A stretch of 64,000 nucleotides of DNA. Origin: Mucilaginibacter aquatilis (GTDB lineage Bacteria; Bacteroidota; Bacteroidia; Sphingobacteriales; Sphingobacteriaceae). The DNA lies in the NCBI RefSeq assembly GCF_009755275.1, contig NZ_WQLA01000002.1, forward strand, positions 62,001 through 126,000. Direction: 5' to 3'. Numbering within the stretch: position 1 is the stretch's first letter; each line of letters begins with the position of its first letter. Of this stretch, positions 52,740 to 61,546 are shown in pieces. The notes beneath the pieces were generated by a model, which was not told the DNA's origin, searched no databases, and worked only from the letters and a program-made list of their open reading frames with translations. Both the position numbers and the translations under genes were made by a program.

Positions 52740-52813
52740 GGAGTGGTAGTTCAGCTGGTTAGAATACATGCCTGTCACGCATGGGGTCGCGGGTTCGAGT
52801 CCCGTCCATTCCG
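52740..52813 (+). tRNA. tRNA-Asp (GTC)
   Basis: A complete cloverleaf of 74 nt: acceptor GGAGTGG / CCATTCC, D arm with GTTCAGCTGGTTAGAAT, anticodon loop CTGTCAC (anticodon GTC), T arm with GGTTCGAGTCC. CCA is not encoded. It is followed by a strong terminator at 52838-52872. Confidence 0.95.
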
Positions 52814-52837
52814 CTAAAAGAGCCGCAAGGCACACCG

Positions 52838-52872
52838 AAAGCGCTTAAATCAATGATTTAGGCGCTTTTTTT
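52838..52872 (+). terminator. intrinsic terminator of tRNA-Asp
   Basis: A stem of about 14 bp (AAAGCGCTTAAATC with GATTTAGGCGCTTT, one G-T pair) and loop AAT, followed by seven T, 24 nt after the tRNA. Confidence 0.85.
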
Positions 52873-52983
52873 GTGCGCAAAGGTGTCGGTTCTTATCATC
52901 AGGGGAATTCTGCTATATGGATTTGTTTATCCATTTGCCATGTAGATTTTTTGATCATTTTAAACTAAAGCATAAACTATAAG

Positions 52984-53088
52984 TGAAAGAGCAACAATCG
53001 GCAGATGTGTATCGGGACTCGAACCCGGGTTCATGTGTTGCTACATGTTTTCAACCTGCGAAGTATCATCCGCCTACGGCATCTCTCA
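52984..53088 (-). ncRNA. Y-RNA-like unit 6 of TROVE-linked array
   Basis: About 105 nt, read on the minus strand. The ends pair (TGAGAGA at 53088-53082 with TCTTTCA at 52990-52984, one G-T pair). It carries GATGCCGTAG (53074-53083), ATACTTCGC (53058-53066) and GTTGC (52991-52995), the array's conserved motifs. Internally, CATGT-AGCAAC-ACATG forms a perfect hairpin (53032-53047) and CGGG-TTCGAGT-CCCG a T-arm (53013-53027). Boundaries are inferred from the closing stem. Confidence 0.6.
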
Positions 53089-53100
53089 TTATAAGCTAAA

Positions 53101-53194
53101 TGACAGAAGGCAACTAATGAAGTTATTATTCGATTACAACGACCGATATCGAACCGGCGAGACAAAGTAGCGCATATTTAACTCACCTTAACTT
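53101..53194 (-). ncRNA. Y-RNA-like unit 5, most degenerate
   Basis: About 94 nt on the minus strand. Conserved motifs are altered: GGTGAGTTAAAT (53176-53187) replaces GGTGTCGTAAAT, CTACTTTGTC replaces TTACTTCGC, and GTTGC (53110-53114) is kept. The closing stem is reduced to AAGG/CCTT. A T-arm remains: CCGG-TTCGATA-TCGG (53143-53157). It may be a decaying copy. Confidence 0.5.
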
Positions 53195-53205
53195 TTCAAT
53201 CTCTT

Positions 53206-53353
53206 AAAAAAGGGTAACAGGCAACAAGTGAAATGCACCTTGCGGTGCTCCTGCTCTACCAACTGAGCTACACTGGCCTAAGCCAATGACCGGACTCGAA
53301 CCGGCGACCTGGACGTTAACAGCGAAGTAACACTCATTTACGACACCTTTTTT
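53206..53353 (-). ncRNA. Y-RNA-like unit 4 with a permuted tRNA mimic
   Basis: 148 nt on the minus strand, closed by AAAAAAGG (53353-53346) with CCTTTTTT (53213-53206). After GGTGTCGTAAAT (53336-53347) and TTACTTCGC (53322-53330) comes a T arm (GCCGG-TTCGAGT-CCGGT, 53289-53305), then CATTGGC-TTAG-GCCAGTG (53271-53288): a 7-bp acceptor stem closed by a tetraloop. Next are TA (the tRNA position 8-9 equivalent) and a D arm (GCTC-AGTTGGTA-GAGC, 53253-53268), then GCACC-GCAA-GGTGC (53235-53248). This is a tRNA elbow with new ends at the anticodon side, as in the effector module of bacterial YrlA Y RNAs. Confidence 0.75.
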
Positions 53354-53360
53354 TATATGT

Positions 53361-53478
53361 AAGAGGGGCAATTACCTCAGTAGTTAACTCCACCCTACTT
53401 TTTTTTAACCATACACCAATGAATTTGACGAGCATCTCAGGTTCTGACTCAAAATAATAATTTTTCACGACACCTCTT
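53361..53478 (-). ncRNA. Y-RNA-like unit 3, no tRNA module
   Basis: About 118 nt on the minus strand. The closing stem is AAGAGG (53478-53473) with CCTCTT (53366-53361). It keeps GGTGTCGTG (53466-53474) and TTGC (53368-53371) but lacks TTACTTCGC and any T-arm. The interior is A+T-rich. It may be a shorter Y RNA type or a decayed unit. Confidence 0.5.
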
Positions 53479-53482
53479 TTTA

Positions 53483-53581
53483 AAAGAAGGGTAAAAAGCA
53501 ATAAGCCATTCCTATCCGTCCGTAAGCAAGGCCCCGGCCGCGGATCCAAGCGAAGTAAGACTTATTTACGACACCTTCTTT
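53483..53581 (-). ncRNA. Y-RNA-like unit 2, alternative interior hairpin
   Basis: 99 nt on the minus strand, closed by AAAGAAGG (53581-53574) with CCTTCTTT (53490-53483). GGTGTCGTAAAT (53564-53575), TTACTTCGC (53550-53558) and TTGC are intact. The tRNA module is replaced by a GC-rich fold in which ATCCG (53541-53545) pairs with CGGAT (53514-53518) around GGCC repeats. Only 3 nt separate it from unit 1. Confidence 0.6.
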
Positions 53582-53584
53582 GTA

Positions 53585-53710
53585 ATAAGGAGCAACAGGC
53601 GAACGCGGGACCGGGGCACGCCTTGGGACTCGAACCCACAGTTTAGTTAAACAATACTGACCAGCCCCTGAAATGGTGAGCGAAGTAACCCGTTTCTACG
53701 GCATCCTTAT
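53585..53710 (-). ncRNA. Y-RNA-like unit 1, nearest the TROVE gene
   Basis: 126 nt on the minus strand, starting 51 nt after the TROVE stop codon. The ends ATAAGGA (53710-53704) and TCCTTAT (53591-53585) are perfectly complementary. Motifs: GATGCCGTAG (53696-53705), TTACTTCGC (53680-53688), GTTGC (53592-53596). A T-arm TGGG-TTCGAGT-CCCA lies around 53624-53638, and AGGCG/CGCCT pairs just 3' of it in the acceptor position. No D-arm is evident. Confidence 0.6.
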
Positions 53711-53760
53711 GTTTTTTATTTCTTTTTAAAATATGAGGCGTTAGCTTCCTCATACTTGGT

Positions 53761-55347
53761 TTATAGTTCTATATTATGGATAGCATCCAATGCCGAACCT
53801 CCGTTTTCTAAAGCAGCTAACACTTCAAAAACCTTATCGCTCCAGCCGGCTATCAGGTATACATCATTGCGCAATATTTGCAAAGGCGCTTGTCCGTAAC
53901 CTTTCAGGTCAAACAGGTAGAGCTTTGCACTTGGCAATACCTCTGCCTTGTAGCGTAACCACAAGGGTTGTATGTAATCGCCGGTGGTTGACGAACTGTT
54001 CCATAACTGGGCATCAGTAAACATAAACACTTTGTCCATTTTTACCTTGCGCTGTAACAGGTCTTTGATAACCAGGTAGCCATTGGTGCTGTAACCCACC
54101 TCGCCCTCGCGGCGATAAAACTCCTGCACGTTACCTAAAATGTTATTACGCGGTACAGCAATGGTTTTCCATGTATCACCAAACATACCCACTTCTACAT
54201 TTTTGCAGCGGCTTTGCAGTAACATGGCCAGCATCAAACCCACATCGTAAAGCAATACCTTGCTTTTAGCCGATACCGGTGTTTGCATCGATCCAGAAAC
54301 GTCGCAGGCTAGCAGTACGCGGGTTTCATAACCGAAACCTTTAATGTTGGCAGCACTTGCCTGTACGGCTTTTTCCAATGCATTCAACAGTTCGCCGGTA
54401 TAACCCTTATTGCCGCCGTGAATTAAAGCAGTTAGTTTTTTTGCCAGGCTTTGCGCAGGAACTTTGGTAACTGCGGGGTTAACCAGCTCGCGGTAGGCAG
54501 CCAAATAACGAAACGGAAACTGCTTTGCTTTAGTCACCTCATTGGCATCGGCTAAACGGACGCATACTTTTTCAAAGTGCGCGTAGCTTACACCGGCCTC
54601 CTGTATGTTGCGCAGGTTACGCAGCAGGGCCATGTAGCCCAGCTTGCCGCTGTCTATCAGTTCTTCCCACTTGGTGCGGAACGCTATGACCTTGGCCTCG
54701 TTGCTATCAAAGTTAAACTGACCTAAGGCCGACAGCTCCGTTTCCCAGGTGTAAGGCGTTTGCAAGTCTCCGTTCACTATTTTATTGAATAGTAGTTGCT
54801 GCAATTCGTCTTTTGCTTTAGGGTGCACCAAAAACAAGGCGTCGCGCAGTTTAATGGCGCCATCGCGGTTGTATTTACCAAATTGATATTCGTCAAAACG
54901 GTTAAAGGCTGTGCTTAATCCTTTTTGCAATTGCTTGCTCAGGCGGTTCAGCTTTTTAGTGCCGGTACGCTTGTTCAGCATTTCGTAGCAGGCCAGTAAT
55001 TCGGTAATTTCATCGGCACGGCCGATTACACCATCGGCAACCCGGGCAACCAGGCTATCGCCCGAGTGCAGCGCAGCTAACTCAGTTACCAGTACCAGTG
55101 GTACCGAACGCATGTGCATTTTGGTACGGGCATATACGGCCAGCTTACCCACAAATTCGGGCTTACACGCATATATTAGTTGGCGCAGGCGTGTTAAACG
55201 CGTCTCATCTTTTTCATAAAAGGAATCATTTAAGCTCCAGGTAACCACGGCGGTATACAGCTCCATTTCGGGCGATAGCGTATATGCTATTTCACCTGCG
55301 TGGTTAACGGTCTGGTTTTTGAATTTGCTTAACAGGTTGAATTTCAT
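53761..55347 (-). CDS. rsr: Ro60-like TROVE/vWA RNA-binding protein (Rsr)
   Basis: A 528-residue bacterial orthologue of the Ro autoantigen. The TROVE domain (residues about 10-340, HEAT-like ring) begins NQTVNHAGEIAYTLSPEMELYTAVVT and is followed by a vWA domain with an intact MIDAS: DVSGSM (Asp349, Ser351, Ser353), a Thr in STNGYLV and Asp in FTDAQLW. Ro rings bind Y RNA and misfolded RNA and work with PNPase or other RNases. I chose ATG 55347, preceded by a strong AGGAGG ribosome site, over 55380, which would overlap the promoter. The Y-RNA-like array follows on the same strand. Confidence 0.93.
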   Translation of the reverse strand: MKFNLLSKFKNQTVNHAGEIAYTLSPEMELYTAVVTWSLNDSFYEKDETRLTRLRQLIYACKPEFVGKLAVYARTKMHMRSVPLVLVTELAALHSGDSLVARVADGVIGRADEITELLACYEMLNKRTGTKKLNRLSKQLQKGLSTAFNRFDEYQFGKYNRDGAIKLRDALFLVHPKAKDELQQLLFNKIVNGDLQTPYTWETELSALGQFNFDSNEAKVIAFRTKWEELIDSGKLGYMALLRNLRNIQEAGVSYAHFEKVCVRLADANEVTKAKQFPFRYLAAYRELVNPAVTKVPAQSLAKKLTALIHGGNKGYTGELLNALEKAVQASAANIKGFGYETRVLLACDVSGSMQTPVSAKSKVLLYDVGLMLAMLLQSRCKNVEVGMFGDTWKTIAVPRNNILGNVQEFYRREGEVGYSTNGYLVIKDLLQRKVKMDKVFMFTDAQLWNSSSTTGDYIQPLWLRYKAEVLPSAKLYLFDLKGYGQAPLQILRNDVYLIAGWSDKVFEVLAALENGGSALDAIHNIEL

Positions 55348-55353
55348 TGTGAA

Positions 55354-55361
55354 CCTCCTTT
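55354..55361 (-). promoter_or_regulatory. unusually strong Shine-Dalgarno site of the TROVE gene
   Basis: The minus strand reads AAAAAGGAGGTTCACAATG: an AGGAGG seven nucleotides from the start. Most genes in this window have no such site, as is typical of Bacteroidota. It supports the chosen start and could indicate high or special translation. Confidence 0.7.
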
Positions 55362-55377
55362 TTCTTTTATGTTGATA

Positions 55378-55415
55378 CAAAGAAATAGTGGCACTGCGCA
55401 GTGTATTTGCGTAGG
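55378..55415 (-). promoter_or_regulatory. TROVE promoter with WYL-type operator
   Basis: The operator at 55393-55415 reads ACTGCGCA-GTGTATT-TGCGTAGG; 20 of 23 bases match the operator between rtcB and the WYL gene. Eight bp away on the minus-strand downstream side lies TTTCTTTG (55385-55378), a weak match to the -7 box TAnnTTTG. A transcript would start near 55371, giving a short leader with the AGGAGG site. The operator covers the -33 region. Confidence 0.7.
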
Positions 55416-55714: not shown

Positions 55715-56287
55715 ATGTCAAATTCATTTAAATTTAAAAAGTCAGTGCAATCAGTAACTTTTTTTGCTCAAAAAGAAGGAGGTACTATCAACTACATGAA
55801 AGCTGGCAAATTAGTTTATTTAGCTGATAAATTGCACTTACGTAAATATGGACGATCAATCACTAATGATACTTATGTGGCAATGAAAAATGGGCCTGTC
55901 CCTTCGAGGACAAAAGATATTATCCTTAAATCAGAATGGTTTGGGCATGATATAGTTGAGTACTCTAATATGTATTTAACTAGGCCGGAAGGTTATAATA
56001 TTTCTTCAATAGGCGAACTAGAGAGTAAGGTGTTTTCACAAACGGACCTTGCTCTTTTGGAGCAGGTTTACAATGAATACGGACATCTAAATGAGTTCGA
56101 TTTGAGTGATTACACCCATACGTTCCCTGAATGGAAGCGCTTTGAATCACAGTTGACTGCTGATCGGAACAGGGCATTTCCAATAATTTCGGATGATTTG
56201 TTTTTACCATTGAATAGTGATAGAACATTATCTCAAAATGAAGAACTCTTGGCTATGAGCAAAGAGGTTTACCAAAACATGTATTAA
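55715..56287 (+). CDS. Panacea (DUF4065) domain antitoxin-like protein
   Basis: A 190-residue protein with a Panacea/SocA-like domain: INYMKAGKLVYLADKLHLRKYGRSITNDTYVAMKNGPVPSRTKDII (residues about 25-70) is the typical core. Panacea domains act as antitoxins or proteolytic adaptors for varied toxins. It is 6 bp upstream of a small gene that would be its toxin. Codon use is more A+T-rich than the flanking genes, suggesting transfer. Confidence 0.85.
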   Translation: MSNSFKFKKSVQSVTFFAQKEGGTINYMKAGKLVYLADKLHLRKYGRSITNDTYVAMKNGPVPSRTKDIILKSEWFGHDIVEYSNMYLTRPEGYNISSIGELESKVFSQTDLALLEQVYNEYGHLNEFDLSDYTHTFPEWKRFESQLTADRNRAFPIISDDLFLPLNSDRTLSQNEELLAMSKEVYQNMY

Positions 56288-56293
56288 GCTTTT

Positions 56294-56734
56294 ATGGTAC
56301 CTCTTAATGTGCTTGTAGAAAGTTTGGTTATCGGTAATATCTATTATTTCATTAACCCACAGATCAACTCTCAAGAACCTCACCCGCATTTATATGTAGG
56401 TGATAAAGATGACAAATCTGCTTTTTTAATTTGTGGTACTTCTCAATTTGAGAAGAGAAAACGCTATTTCGAGTTAGTCGGTTTACCTTACGAGACCTTG
56501 GTAAGAATACGTCCTTCAGAAGATAATAAGTTAACAACTGATACATACATTAATTGTAATGATGTGCAGACCCATGATTTTAATTCACTTTTTACATACA
56601 GTAAATTTTCATTCTACGGGACGACTACAAAATCCGAACAATATGAAGTTAAAAACGGAATTTCGATAAGTGTCCTTGTTGAAGAGGATGATAAAGAAAT
56701 TATCTTGGGTCAATTTCCAGATTTTGATCTATAA
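56294..56734 (+). CDS. putative toxin partner of the Panacea protein
   Basis: A 146-residue protein I cannot assign with certainty. The segment VIGNIYYFINPQINSQEPHPHLYVGDKDDKSAFLICGTSQFEKRKRYFE resembles the SH3-like barrel start of MazF/PemK-type endoribonucleases, but the fit is weak and no catalytic Arg pattern is clear. Position directly after the antitoxin-like gene and small size support a toxin role. A+T-rich composition like its partner. Confidence 0.6.
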   Translation: MVPLNVLVESLVIGNIYYFINPQINSQEPHPHLYVGDKDDKSAFLICGTSQFEKRKRYFELVGLPYETLVRIRPSEDNKLTTDTYINCNDVQTHDFNSLFTYSKFSFYGTTTKSEQYEVKNGISISVLVEEDDKEIILGQFPDFDL

Positions 56735-57354: not shown

Positions 57355-58794
57355 TTATTTCAATAGAATCCTTAAGCTATCAACAGAATTCTTTATAGAT
57401 TTATCGTTTTTCAAATTATCAAGATTACTTGAAAATTTCTCAATCTTCTCAATCAATTCTTTTACTGGAGGGGATGTTACTATTGGTTTCACAAGCTCGA
57501 TCATTGCTCTGAATTTCCTTGCACATAAGCTGTGCTGTAGCTTATCTGACACTTTAGAATCATTAAACGATAACACTGCTACATTTGCTTGATGTGAATC
57601 CAATTGTGATAAAAGAGAAATATAAATTGGTTGTGCTGCCATAGTGATACCGTTGCCATTTGTAATAAATACTTCAACTAAAGCAAGAACGTATTTTTTA
57701 CTTATTTGCTTAGGTAGTTTTGGAGGGTCGCCAACAACACGTTGTAATTGTTTGGCAAATGAGGGTTCATTATAAAAATTATTCATGCCCCTGTGTGCCG
57801 TTAATAAATTGTTAATTGATGTTTCAATTTCGACGCCTCTTAAATCATTAGGGATATAACTTTCGCCATTAACAATCTGTAAAAACTCTCTTGATAATTT
57901 CTTCTCATGTTGGTAATTTGCAGCAACAAAATTTCCATATTTTAATCCAAAGGTGTCTCTTGTATCTTCATCAACTCTATTCCAAATCAGAGGAAGTAGG
58001 CGATTAATGTTTTGAAGCGTTTGACTATTAGTATCAGGCTTAGTGTAAATACCAAAGAAGCCAGAGACCAGATTGTTAACTTGCTCTTGTGTTAAATTTG
58101 TAAAGAAAACTGCGATTTCTTGGGCTTCCTGTGAAGATATACTACTTGTTTTTATCCCAGCTAAGAGTTGCTTGATTTTCGTGGTTTGATTTGATATTGG
58201 TAAAGAGATAACCTCATTTACGCATGTTTCGAGCCACGAAATTAATTGTAAACCAGTTATTGCGTTCTGATTAGGATGTGCAGCACTTGCCCAATTTCGC
58301 ATATAATTGATATATTCTAAATGCTTAGCTCCTAATTCCGATATAAGGCCAATTTCTTTAGCCCCTTTAATTAAATCATAATCATCAACTTTATTAAGAT
58401 CACTTTCATCTCTGAGTCTTTTTCTTTTATCTCCAGAAACGGCATTATCGTAGAAATATTCCAAATCATATTGAACAACTCTTTTTCGGATTTGAATAAT
58501 TGTTTCATCCCATAAATAGTTTAAAGCCGCATCAAATAATCCAGACGCTACTCCGGCTATAAATTTTGACAGATACAAGGATTGCTCTTTTTCTTTGCGA
58601 TCAATTTGTGAAATCACAGATTCAAGGTTTTTAAAAACTTTAACTCTTTCCGGTACATTAACAAATATATTATCTGATGGCAAATTGTGTTGTTCTAAAA
58701 AATCTATAAGCCCACCTTCAAATTCACGAAGTTGTAAATCATAGTTTGCTTGCTTTATTATTTCTGGTTTATTTTCCATAACATAATGTATCAT
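57355..58794 (-). CDS. unknown protein with a HEPN-like motif, downstream of rtcB
   Basis: A 479-residue, nearly all-helical protein; start may be 58794 or 58779. I do not recognise the family. Residues 79-105 (IAGVASGLFDAALNYLWDETIIQIR) and 158-180 with RNWASAAH (Arg166, Asn167, His173) fit the helical arrangement and R-N-x5-H (Rx4-6H) motif of HEPN ribonucleases, suggesting RNA cleavage; this is inference. The C-terminal 250 residues look like HEAT repeats. It is A+T-rich and lies 43 bp after rtcB on the same strand. Confidence 0.6.
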   Translation of the reverse strand: MIHYVMENKPEIIKQANYDLQLREFEGGLIDFLEQHNLPSDNIFVNVPERVKVFKNLESVISQIDRKEKEQSLYLSKFIAGVASGLFDAALNYLWDETIIQIRKRVVQYDLEYFYDNAVSGDKRKRLRDESDLNKVDDYDLIKGAKEIGLISELGAKHLEYINYMRNWASAAHPNQNAITGLQLISWLETCVNEVISLPISNQTTKIKQLLAGIKTSSISSQEAQEIAVFFTNLTQEQVNNLVSGFFGIYTKPDTNSQTLQNINRLLPLIWNRVDEDTRDTFGLKYGNFVAANYQHEKKLSREFLQIVNGESYIPNDLRGVEIETSINNLLTAHRGMNNFYNEPSFAKQLQRVVGDPPKLPKQISKKYVLALVEVFITNGNGITMAAQPIYISLLSQLDSHQANVAVLSFNDSKVSDKLQHSLCARKFRAMIELVKPIVTSPPVKELIEKIEKFSSNLDNLKNDKSIKNSVDSLRILLK

Positions 58795-58837: not shown

Positions 58838-60292
58838 TCAATCCTCCGGCTTCTCCCTTGCATCCGCCATCCTTACAATTCTTGGTTCAAACCTGGCCAG
58901 TACCTCTACCAAATTTTCCTGCGCGGCCATTACGGCGTGGATGTCTTTGTAGGCCATAGGGGCTTCGTCCATGTCGCTACCCATGAGGGTAATTCGTTTA
59001 TCAACCAGGTTGGCGGCTATCAAAGCTTTATCCAGCCTTTTAAAGGCGGCGCTACGGCTCATGGCCCTTCCGGCACCATGACTGGCCGAATTAATACTTT
59101 CGGTATTACCTCTACCGCGTACCAAAAATCCGGGCGTACTCATGCTGCCGGGGATAATACCCAACACACCTTCGCCGGCCGGGGTTGCACCTTTACGGTG
59201 TACCATTACCTCCGTACCATCGGCTAGTTGCTCTTTCCAGGCAAAGTTGTGGTGGTTCTCTACCATTGCCATGGGTTTAAGGCCTAAAGCACGGGCAATT
59301 TTATTGTGGATTTCGTGGTGATTGGCGCTGGCATACTCGCCGGCCAGGTTCATGGCTATCCAGTATTCTTGTCCTTCGTCTTTATCCAGGTCTAACCAGG
59401 CCAAATGCTTGGCTTCTGTAGGCAGCTTGGTTTTGGTCATGGCTATCTTACTGTAATGGTCGGCCACGCTGCCACCAAAACCACGCGAGCCAGAGTGTGA
59501 CAACAAAGCCAGGTATTTACCTGCCGGGATGCCAGCCATAGCGCCTTCGGCAATAGTCAGTTCGCCCCATTCCACAAAGTGGTTGCCGGTTCCGCTGGTG
59601 CCTAACTGCGCATAAGCCTTATCTTTTAACGAGCGAATAACTTTGGTTTCGTTCCAGGTTTTGCTATCAAACAATGAACTGTCAAAGTAAGATTTGGTAG
59701 TACAGCCCATCCCAAAGTAAGTGTTGTCTACCAATATGTTTTTCAGCTTGTCCGTTTCAGTATCCACCGCTTCGGCAGGTAAATCAAAAATGCTTAAACA
59801 CATACGGCAGGCAATATCAACACCTACGGCAAAGGGTATAATGGTATTGGCCGTAGTAGCCAAAACGCCGCCAATAGGCAAGCCATAGCCCTGGTGCGCA
59901 TCGGGCATCAGTGCGCCGGCAACAGCAATAGGTAATTGTACCGCAGTTTTCATCTGCGCCAGCGCACCTACTTCAATATGCTCCAATCCCCATACCGGGA
60001 AATCGGCAATCTCTTCTTTCAGCTTAAAGTTGGTGCGCTCCTGCTTTATAAATTTCCCTTTTTTACGCAGGGCTATTACGTCTTCGGCCAGGTTTTTGAA
60101 CTTACCGCCTTTCTTTAAGGCATAAGGCATAGGGTCGTTAATCAAGGCTTCTAAGTTGGCCAGTATTTCGGGCTTGGCCATTACGCCGTGTTTTAGCAAA
60201 CCGTTAGCCACGCGGCTAAAGTTTACCAGTATTTCTACATCATCAATGCCTAATGCATTTAATTCGTTGTTGCTTATTTTATGCTTTTCCAT
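58838..60292 (-). CDS. rtcB: RtcB-type RNA ligase
   Basis: A 484-residue GTP/Mn2+-dependent ligase that joins 2',3'-cyclic-phosphate or 3'-phosphate ends to 5'-OH ends of RNA. Metal ligands are in VGVDIACRM (Asp159, Cys162), GNHFVEW and HSGSRGFG; the guanylylated His is His405 in SASHGAGRAMSR. The RKGATPAGEGV and IPGSMSTPGFLV motifs are intact, so it should be active. It is divergent from the WYL regulator and shares an operator sequence with the TROVE gene. In Salmonella, rtcB sits in one operon with rsr and Y RNA. Confidence 0.94.
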   Translation of the reverse strand: MEKHKISNNELNALGIDDVEILVNFSRVANGLLKHGVMAKPEILANLEALINDPMPYALKKGGKFKNLAEDVIALRKKGKFIKQERTNFKLKEEIADFPVWGLEHIEVGALAQMKTAVQLPIAVAGALMPDAHQGYGLPIGGVLATTANTIIPFAVGVDIACRMCLSIFDLPAEAVDTETDKLKNILVDNTYFGMGCTTKSYFDSSLFDSKTWNETKVIRSLKDKAYAQLGTSGTGNHFVEWGELTIAEGAMAGIPAGKYLALLSHSGSRGFGGSVADHYSKIAMTKTKLPTEAKHLAWLDLDKDEGQEYWIAMNLAGEYASANHHEIHNKIARALGLKPMAMVENHHNFAWKEQLADGTEVMVHRKGATPAGEGVLGIIPGSMSTPGFLVRGRGNTESINSASHGAGRAMSRSAAFKRLDKALIAANLVDKRITLMGSDMDEAPMAYKDIHAVMAAQENLVEVLARFEPRIVRMADAREKPED

Positions 60293-60392: not shown

Positions 60393-60430
60393 CAAAGAGA
60401 AACAACAACTGCGCAGCGTATTTGCGCAGT
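60393..60430. promoter_or_regulatory. operator/promoter shared with the TROVE gene, rtcB-WYL region
   Basis: A perfect 8-bp inverted repeat with 7-bp spacer, ACTGCGCA-GCGTATT-TGCGCAGT (60408-60430). On the minus strand TCTCTTTG (60400-60393) follows it by 8 bp as a weak -7 box for rtcB; the same ATACAAAG + 10 bp + operator arrangement occurs before the TROVE gene. The WYL protein encoded next door is the obvious candidate to bind it. Confidence 0.72.
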
Positions 60431-60496: not shown

Positions 60497-61546
60497 ATGC
60501 CTGTTAACCGCAATGCCCTCATCCGTTACCGTACCATTGACCAGTGCCTGCAAAATCGCAAAAGAAGGTGGACGCTGGACGATTTGATTGAAGCATGCAG
60601 CGATGCCATTTATGAATACCAAGGTATTGATACCGGCGTAAGCCGCCGTACCGTGCAGGCCGATATTGAAATGATGCGCAGCAACAAGCTGGGTTACGAA
60701 GCGCCCATAGCAGTAATTGATAAAAAGTATTACACTTATACCGATAAAACGTACAGCATTACCAACAGCCCGCTAAATCAACAGGATATGCAGGTACTGA
60801 GCGAGGTTTCGGGTTTGTTAAAGCAGTTTAAAGGTTTTGGTCACTTTGCCGACGTTAACGAAATGGTAAGCAAACTGGAAGACAAAATTTACACCCAAAA
60901 AACGCACAGCGCCCCGGTTATTGATTTTGAAAAGAACGATAATTTAAAAGGCCTGGAGTGGCTAGAGGTAATTAGGAAAGCCATTGTTGCTAAACGAACG
61001 CTGTGTGTTACCTATCAATCGTTCAAGGCCCGTGGTCCCAGTACGTTTTGCATCAGCGGTTATTTGCTTAAAGAGTATCGTAACCGCTGGTTTGTGCTGG
61101 GGCAATCACACCAGCGTAATTCGCCTTTGCTTACCCTGGCTTTAGATCGTATACAAACCGTTGAAGAACACGCTGACGATTACCGCGAGAACACCGAGTT
61201 AGACTTGACCACTTATTATAACGATGTTATAGGTGTAACCAAAACCCCTAATCAACGTGACTGTGAGGTGGTTTTTTGGATAGATAAAGACAATGCGCCC
61301 TATATTATAACCAAGCCCCTGCACCACACGCAAAAGCTGCTGAGCGAGGATCAAACCGGCAAAATATTCAGCATACGTGTTATTTTAAATTTTGAACTGG
61401 AGCGTGAACTGTTAGGCTTTGGCGCTAAGATACGGGTGTTAGGCCCGCGCATATTGGTTAAACAAATAAAGGAGCAGTTTTGGAAAGCTTTGGAAGGATA
61501 TAAACAGGAGCAGCGTGATGATGAGGCGGAAGAAACGGCAAGGTAA
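60497..61546 (+). CDS. WYL-domain transcriptional regulator of the RNA-repair genes
   Basis: A 349-residue regulator: N-terminal winged helix (RYRTIDQCLQNRKRRWTLDDLIEACSDAIYEYQGIDTGVSRRTVQADIEMMRS, residues about 9-62) followed by WYL (about residues 150-235, containing TYQSFKARGPSTFCISGYLLKEYRNRWFVLG) and a WCX-like C-terminal domain. WYL domains sense single-stranded nucleic acid or nucleotides. It is divergent from rtcB and probably controls it and the TROVE gene through the shared operator; whether as activator or repressor is unknown. Confidence 0.9.
   Translation: MPVNRNALIRYRTIDQCLQNRKRRWTLDDLIEACSDAIYEYQGIDTGVSRRTVQADIEMMRSNKLGYEAPIAVIDKKYYTYTDKTYSITNSPLNQQDMQVLSEVSGLLKQFKGFGHFADVNEMVSKLEDKIYTQKTHSAPVIDFEKNDNLKGLEWLEVIRKAIVAKRTLCVTYQSFKARGPSTFCISGYLLKEYRNRWFVLGQSHQRNSPLLTLALDRIQTVEEHADDYRENTELDLTTYYNDVIGVTKTPNQRDCEVVFWIDKDNAPYIITKPLHHTQKLLSEDQTGKIFSIRVILNFELERELLGFGAKIRVLGPRILVKQIKEQFWKALEGYKQEQRDDEAEETAR

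Follow-up and report, generated by a model that had tools for sequence, protein, structure and literature searches.

Y-RNA-like units with differing heads form a tandem array beside a TROVE/Ro60 gene in Mucilaginibacter aquatilis and at TROVE loci across Bacteroidota

Bacterial Y RNAs are described as modular RNAs of 90–150 nt (PubMed Central (PMC) article PMC8394870). Their lower stem is bound by Rsr, the Deinococcus Y RNA tethers Rsr to PNPase, and the heads of YrlA-type Y RNAs mimic tRNA (PMC4726728, PMC8394870, PMC7790460). In Salmonella, rsr, the Y RNAs and rtcBA form one operon that is activated by damaged tRNAs (PMC7790460). Y RNAs exist in at least one species of Bacteroidota, since they are among the RNAs of the immunoprecipitated Ro60 ribonucleoproteins (RNPs) of Bacteroides thetaiotaomicron (Greiling et al. 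2018, as cited in PMC11277228), a member of the phylum to which the organism studied here belongs. Here we analyze a 64,000-nt stretch of the Mucilaginibacter aquatilis contig NZ_WQLA01000002.1 (the window), in which six Y-RNA-like units lie on the minus strand 3' of a TROVE/Ro60-like gene, between 53710 and 52984. The six head-to-tail units, two of them decayed, are of Y RNA type and share one conserved stem below differing heads; in all likelihood they offer the TROVE/Ro60 protein a choice of adaptor RNAs.

The gene beside the array (53761–55380, minus strand) is an open reading frame (ORF) of 539 aa whose predicted product has Pfam matches to TROVE (3.2e-30) and vWA_Ro60 (5.6e-7), both above cut-off. 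By this combination of a TROVE with a Ro60-type vWA domain, the product is a member of the Ro60/Rsr family. Two PDB chains that bear the name TROVE domain-containing protein, 9kop and 9l5y, match it as well (1.9e-19). The source genome (G000, 4.33 Mb) contains this single TROVE gene and encodes PNPase as well. The nearest named TROVE relative found among the best 80 of 159 loci was that of Mucilaginibacter galii, with 90% protein identity.

Numbered from the TROVE gene outwards, the units measure 83–148 nt and are separated by 3, 4, 7, 16 and 18 nt, a somewhat wider range than the 3–12 nt given by an earlier note made from the sequence alone. Unit 1 (53585–53710, 126 nt) has a head of class I, in which a G-rich acceptor-like helix, a 9-bp hairpin and a 4-bp T-arm can be drawn, and scores 116 bits with the class I model R3, whose training set includes it. 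Unit 2 (53483–53581, 99 nt) carries a class II head, a hairpin without T-arm, an assignment based in part on the consensus fold of alignment A6. Unit 4 (53206–53353, 148 nt) has a class III head, a YrlA-like permuted tRNA domain of T-arm, acceptor hairpin and D-arm; it scores 126 bits with the class III model R2, in whose training set it stands. Unit 6 (52984–53088, 105 nt) bears a class VI head, consisting of a hairpin and a T-arm, and clusters with the final unit of many relatives' arrays. Between these lie unit 3 (53361–53478, 118 nt), in which the upper stem and the sequence UACUUCG are gone and the head is class III-like by eye, and unit 5 (53107–53189, 83 nt), by eye a short class III unit that retains its T-arm and has lost its D-arm. 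The array thus holds classes I, II, III and VI, and class V is not among them. The complementary ends that the earlier note had read in the six minus-strand units, and the motifs GRUGYCGUA, UUACUUCG and UUGC that it had read in most of them, are present in the sequence, as are its four T-loops (TTCGAGT in units 1, 4 and 6, TTCGATA in unit 5) and the closing stem of 4 bp in unit 5.

Units 1, 2, 4 and 6 pass a test in which closing stem, upper stem and 3' loop are scored jointly and compared with shuffled sequences. Units 3 and 5 score 15.0 and 10.8 and fail it, 95% of shuffles lying below 19.8. Because of this failure, and because R2 gives unit 3 20.5 bits and unit 5 no match, these two look like decayed copies. 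On the two strands of the window, a weight matrix of the 5' core (25 positions; 140 training sites, taken from the array and from relatives) exceeds 8 bits at units 4, 2, 1 and 6 only, versus a maximum of 4.3 across 309,750 positions of Markov-shuffled control. Similarly, all matches of R2 in the window up to E = 1 fall within the array, at five of its six units; this model was built from 46 units, including unit 4.

Comparable units accompany TROVE genes in relatives. TROVE matches were found in 42 of 301 genomes of the family, and a relaxed scan placed candidate units at 39 of the 42 loci, the other three (G046, G082, G095) being TROVE fragments only. At least two same-strand copies of a strict 25-base core pattern occur in 30/42 TROVE-positive versus 0/259 TROVE-negative family genomes. 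In a class-wide draw of 395 genomes, TROVE was present in 18, and R2 reached at least 55 bits in 17 of these 18 versus none of the 377 others (best score 50.6 bits). Training units had come from no fewer than three of the 17 (G000, G072, G021), and the model matches and TROVE counts come from two 395-genome draws with recurring genome handles. We also examined the best 80 of 159 confirmed TROVE loci across Bacteroidota, a named-locus set that shares many Mucilaginibacter loci with the family set, so that the two tallies are not independent. Units lie within 3 kb downstream of TROVE, on its strand, at 76 of the 80 loci, with two or more at 72 and three or more at 69; together they number 385, with a maximum of nine at one locus; the loci of M. 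galii (L045) and M. agri (L046) hold eight and seven. The opposite strand holds none at any of the 80 loci, downstream or upstream. Upstream of TROVE, on its own strand, there are 12 units in three loci (five in L082, six in L120 and one in L108). L082 and L120 are two of the four loci that have no downstream units; in the remaining two, the contig ends one base past the TROVE gene (L075) or a unit is cut by the contig start (L090). Beyond the family training set, the family-trained model gave 248 matches in 51 named loci, one of them titled Pedobacter; all lie on the TROVE strand, and some partial ones may be tandem tRNAs. Encoding near a Ro60/TROVE gene, a mark of Y RNAs, therefore holds both in the named loci (76/80) and in the class-wide draw (17/18 versus 0/377). 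Conservation of stems and motifs beside the TROVE genes of relatives, which the earlier note had named as a test of its proposal, was likewise found by a wide margin.

The same counts correct that proposal in one respect: with 385 units at 80 named loci, arrays are usual at the TROVE loci of Bacteroidota and are no peculiarity of this genome. The note's phrase "one or two", for the Y RNAs of studied bacteria, may also understate what was known before. Chen and colleagues (2014) reportedly found Y RNAs close to Ro60 in over 250 species, each with at least one tRNA-like Y RNA, and some species are said to have more than one Y RNA near Ro60. Two family loci are unusual in their layout. In G216 (locus L043), five good units lie beside a TROVE remnant of 61 aa, the sole TROVE match of that genome; because the units persist there, Y RNAs may outlast their protein or bind another one. 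In G101 (L006) the array is interrupted, with three strict-core matches near TROVE and three about 2 kb further among the matches listed.

The units share a common core. From 39 loci of family relatives, the source locus included, we collected 204 candidate units; in the joint stem score, 191 of them rank above the 95th percentile of shuffles and 187 above the 99th. The 13 units below the structure threshold were left out of clustering, and the 191 good units range from 67 to 176 nt (median 127). The lower part of the core is a closing stem of about 5–11 bp. A single bulged U follows, and after it two base pairs, one G-C and one pyrimidine-purine. The internal loop above these starts with CGUA and leads to an upper stem (about 8 bp), beyond which come UACUUCG and then the head. 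Among 46 sequences, the pair after the bulge is U-A in 28, C-G in 14 and U-G in four, GUC going with UAC and GCC with UGC. As this pair covaries, the motifs GRUGYCGUA and UUGC can be understood as the two strands of one covarying element. The bulged lower stem and internal loop expected of Y RNAs are thus present, and closing stems are 98–100% paired, with double changes.

Covariation was measured on MAFFT alignments that were built without structure and on which structures were then imposed, with 500 shuffles as control. The counts cover classes I, III, V and VI; alignment A5 (class IV) took 16 of 17 units, A2 was made without the seven class-I-like units of cluster 16, and clusters of fewer than three units lay outside the analysis. 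Paired cells amounted to 92.6% in class V (A1, 16 sequences; 48 double-change cells versus 13.4 shuffled), 93.9% in class I (A2, 33 sequences; 89 versus 25.2), 96.7% in class III (A4, 46 of 66 sequences; 190 versus 39.3) and 94.1% in class VI (A3, 18 sequences; 49 versus 14.8). None of the 500 shuffles matched the observed pairing and double changes in any of the four classes, and when partners were slid by one to three columns, at most 57% of cells were paired. Without imposed structure, RNAalifold recovered the closing stem, bulge, upper stem, T-arm, acceptor hairpin and D-arm from A4, a hairpin head from class II (A6), and the closing stem, inner hairpin and T-arm from classes V and I, with the upper stem in class V. 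In the 150 best matches from the wider loci, 96.1% of cells are paired and there are 1251 double changes versus 319 shuffled, in a model-fitted alignment. By these comparisons of sequence, core and head helices covary. The earlier proposal of a six-member Y RNA family is therefore supported in kind, by conservation and covariation, but only four members are well formed.

The heads fall into recurrent classes. A motif rule, simple and strict enough to miss some shortened T-arms, divided the 191 good units into 51 with T-arm and D-arm, 83 with a T-arm, two with a D-arm and 55 with neither, and 37 of the 39 loci have at least one unit with both among all their candidates. Clustering yielded classes whose order is largely kept in the closer relatives: I, then II or III, IV, V, and VI at the end. 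Class IV units are short (67–81 nt) with a short loop, which reads CCTGTCACG in eight of the 16 units aligned. Class III follows the YrlA design, the Y stem occupying, as judged from the predicted fold, the place of the tRNA anticodon arm. Class V seems to be a cloverleaf opened in the D-loop: the two halves of a D-arm stand at the ends of its head, the 3' half first and the 5' half last, and between them lie a hairpin, a T-arm and an acceptor-like hairpin. In class I, a G-rich helix connected to the Y stem surrounds a 9-bp hairpin and a T-arm, so that the Y stem seems to be attached at the tRNA acceptor end. These designs recur beyond the family. The class V model gave 91.9, 85.0, 80.6 and 75.8 bits to units of L098, L095, L087 and L113, versus 56.8, 42.6, 39.1 and 42.8 bits with the class III model, and the class I model scored 115–119 bits in the Dyadobacter loci L070, L073 and L076. 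No Rfam family matched the four class V units in the scanned loci at E ≤ 0.1.

Two further peculiarities of heads were observed. Three orthologous units of 221–222 nt (L085:7011–7231, L109:7550–7771 and L118:8333–8554) have heads that start with TAACGGYCCTAAGGTAGC, a stretch of 24–31 nt that is 87–92% identical to the 23S rRNA of G000. Against a 4.7-kb 23S region, blastn gave these heads E values of 4e-6, 1.4e-5 and 1.1e-6; Rfam found no LSU rRNA match in the L109 stretch at E ≤ 1, and the pattern of the 222-nt unit was absent from the viral contigs searched. These units are possibly rRNA-mimic Y RNAs. In Deinococcus, Rsr aids 23S maturation (PMC4030889). In addition, an insert of about 44 nt (TTGAGCGGG...GYGCGAAAAA) breaks the T-loop of unit 4 in L010 (~3640, plus strand) and of unit 6 in L043 (~4979, plus strand), and was also noted for L129–L132. 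Since related inserts stand near tRNA-like 3' ends, apparently duplicated, in G180, and once in G121, we set aside a mini-intron; a small mobile or attachment-site element that targets T-loops is the likelier identity.

Compared with the YrlA Y RNAs of Salmonella and Mycobacterium (Rfam RF02553), class III units have the same closing stem, internal loop, upper stem and permuted order of T-arm, acceptor hairpin and D-arm, and T-stem, acceptor hairpin and D-stem covary in class III, to which unit 4 belongs. A permuted domain with T-arm and D-arm was not found in units 1, 2 and 6. The arrays differ from YrlA in their loop, which reads UGYCGUA / UUGC with UACUUCG and not the Rfam consensus, and in carrying several heads per locus, many of non-YrlA form. 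RF02553 matched unit 4 only, at 38.1 bits (E 4.7e-6; gathering score 69), and stayed below the gathering score wherever it was searched, with a best of 51.5 bits in 395 genomes. As it also matches control genomes, Rfam was rejected as sole evidence. We therefore place the units with the bacterial Y RNAs by their testable sequence features, not with Rfam YrlA by score. Our guess is that the control matches fall at junctions of tandem tRNAs, which present T-arm, acceptor and D-arm in the same order; if so, they would hint at the origin of the permuted head.

A further link to the described systems lies upstream of the TROVE gene. An rtcB RNA ligase gene (58838–60292, minus strand; Pfam RtcB 1.2e-83) is oriented like TROVE about 3.5 kb from it, and a gene for a WYL-domain regulator (60497–61546, plus strand; Pfam WYL 1.7e-11, WCX 3.6e-10) is divergent from rtcB. 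A putative operator, the imperfect palindrome CTGCGCAGTGTATTTGCGTAG, lies at 55394–55414, directly upstream of the TROVE ORF, and a second copy at 60409–60429, between rtcB and the WYL gene. Written as CTGCGCAGYGTATTTGCGYAG, the palindrome is separated by 13 bases from the listed start of the TROVE ORF and by 116 bases from the start of the rtcB ORF. With up to three mismatches, the 4.33-Mb genome holds these two copies and one other, with three mismatches. The site occurs within 300 bp upstream of TROVE, with at most three mismatches, at 45 of 80 named loci, a count that takes in many close relatives, versus 3 of 77 control stretches. RtcB is encoded within 4 kb of TROVE at no fewer than 33 of the 80 loci, a WYL gene lies upstream at 27 or more, and an RlaP-like gene downstream at seven or more (named RlaP by Pfam in L033); these are lower bounds, contig ends having cut some flanks. 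The likeness to rsr-yrlBA-rtcBA of Salmonella (PMC7790460) is in the company of a Ro60 ortholog, Y RNAs and RtcB. The present locus differs in its multi-unit array, in a regulator beside rtcB of the WYL and not the RtcR type, and in a shared putative operator in place of a single operon. With the Rsr/Y RNA/PNPase assembly (RYPER) of Deinococcus radiodurans (PMC4726728, PMC8394870), it shares a TROVE protein beside Y-RNA-like genes and the presence of a PNPase gene in the genome, and differs from it in the multiple head types of the array. The 3.5 kb between TROVE and rtcB hold three ORFs of at least 140 aa: a SocA/Panacea-like gene (55715–56287, plus strand) and two without Pfam match, of 146 aa (56294–56734, plus strand) and 479 aa (57355–58794, minus strand). 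Because rtcB is much closer to TROVE in L053 and L064, 55715–58794 may represent an inserted module.

A hairpin followed by UUUUAAAA (53729–53757, minus strand) separates unit 1 from the TROVE stop codon. Beyond the array, at 52838–52873, there is a GCGC-rich hairpin with runs of A and T on its flanks, before a convergent tRNA-Asp gene (52740–52814, plus strand); it is a two-way terminator by eye, and was not reported by the terminator scan. That scan and the sigma-70 scan were set aside, as neither gave an excess over shuffles (5 versus 3.6 ± 1.7 and 6 versus 4.4 ± 2.3). The -7 promoter motif of Bacteroidota is TAnnTTTG, and the six loci inspected lack it in their first 1000 nt. This, with the short gaps between units (20 nt or less in 109 of 141 pairs), favours a single transcript.

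Taken together, the locus is best read as a co-transcribed set of predicted Ro60 adaptor RNAs within an RNA-repair regulon. Several observations weigh against this. The score used to pick the 3' ends of units favours paired closing and upper stems, which inflates the pairing of those helices; the head helices did not enter this score. RNAalifold did not return the D-stem and acceptor hairpin of class V from A1, nor the upper stem and acceptor-like helix of class I from A2. For the D-stem (75% paired), the acceptor hairpin (78%) and the acceptor-like helix (83%), we therefore rely on counts with imposed structure. A class V D-stem pair is missed in up to five of 16 rows, and a sub-cluster with a shifted, shorter D-stem comprises five rows. 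Two of the six units of the source array are decayed. No Rfam family reaches its gathering score anywhere on the array, where the other match is to tmRNA (9.6 bits, at the T-arm of unit 1), and RF02553 has matches at E ≤ 0.001 in 6 of 14 control genomes, all of them below its cut-off. The model matches lie about 26 kb from TROVE in G377 and on a contig other than that of TROVE in G653, and the TROVE-positive G596 has no match at 55 bits. Since CTGCGCAGYGTATTTGCGYAG was written from its two copies, its perfect match is by construction, and RtcB was not seen in the flanks of 47 of the 80 loci, some of them cut by contig ends. Lastly, most of the 35 spacers folded, as single sequences without shuffle control, hold a terminator-like hairpin between TROVE and unit 1, and two sigma-70-like matches, at chance level, lie on the array strand inside the array (53483–53454 and 53152–53125). 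Because of the spacer hairpin and these internal matches, the array might have its own transcript or transcripts.

The tight packing of the units could mean that the array RNA is never cut and acts as one long multivalent scaffold, holding several TROVE rings side by side, one per stem. Gaps between consecutive good units are at most 20 nt in 109 of 141 pairs (median 12), the order of head classes is largely conserved in closer relatives, and the lack of TAnnTTTG in the six loci fits as well. We nevertheless consider a scaffold unlikely: the number of good units ranges from one to nine per locus, units decay singly, most single units have the size of bacterial Y RNAs (90–150 nt; PMC8394870), and some arrays are loose, with gaps above 60 nt in 15 of 141 pairs, or interrupted, as in G101. 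The position right after the stop codon, on the TROVE strand, would also suit a structured 3' untranslated region through which TROVE could bind its own message, for stability control or autoregulation and without trans-acting Y RNAs. Units that lie upstream of TROVE in L082 and L120, some 26 kb away in G377, and beside the TROVE remnant in G216 make this improbable, and it would leave the diversity of heads without a role.

The least credible account, to which we give next to no weight, is a graveyard of tRNA genes, in which T-arms and D-arms are remnants of a decayed cluster that came to lie beside TROVE by chance. Some heads do match the 16S-23S spacer of G000, over up to 22 of 22 nt among the matches listed, in a part taken to be tRNA genes, and the Rfam YrlA model also fires at genome sites that may be tandem tRNAs. 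However, ARAGORN finds no tRNA within the array, the common core and its covarying stems are foreign to tRNAs, the heads are permuted, and 55 of the 191 good units have neither T-arm nor D-arm under the strict rule. Stems remain paired in 96–97% of cells, and the covariation of head and core helices contradicts this account.

Under the adaptor reading, a single RNA would be transcribed from the array, and cleavage at the closing stems or close to them would release separate Y RNAs. The common stem of each intact unit would be bound by the TROVE ring at the bulge and internal loop, by analogy with the lower-stem binding of Ro60 and Rsr elsewhere. Each head would then set the task of the ring by docking a partner that recognizes tRNA-like folds, such as PNPase or tRNA-modifying or tRNA-repair enzymes; alternatively, heads may gate the ring's central hole. 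Together with RtcB, and probably under the divergent WYL regulator, the system may serve as a response to RNA damage, with TROVE RNPs directing broken structured RNAs to either decay or repair. Tentatively, we extend this to Bacteroidota at large, where the arrays could form a co-transcribed library of Ro60 adaptors. In it, one Ro clamp would be grafted onto the tRNA fold at three entry points, namely the place of the anticodon arm (class III), the opened D-loop (class V, a near-complete cloverleaf with a hairpin at the anticodon-arm place) and the acceptor end (class I). Non-tRNA heads, one of which opens with a 23S rRNA stretch, would join them, each head showing the ring to a different enzyme, so that the ring could be reprogrammed by swapping its RNA within a regulon shared with RtcB.

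In the open-licence PMC literature, no description of such Y-RNA arrays was found. As far as that library shows, the phylum-wide tandem arrays, the ordered non-YrlA head classes, the D-loop-opened head and the site shared with rtcB are new, though some of these may be reported already in other papers. Why Ro60, a lupus autoantigen, needs Y RNAs, and why organisms keep several of them, is a long-standing question on which these loci bear: many named species, isolates included, carry up to nine paralogous Y-RNA-like units with a constant stem and recurrent heads, often near an RNA ligase gene. The D-loop-opened head would be an additional topology of tRNA mimicry, and arrays with recurrent heads make the function of Y RNA heads testable.

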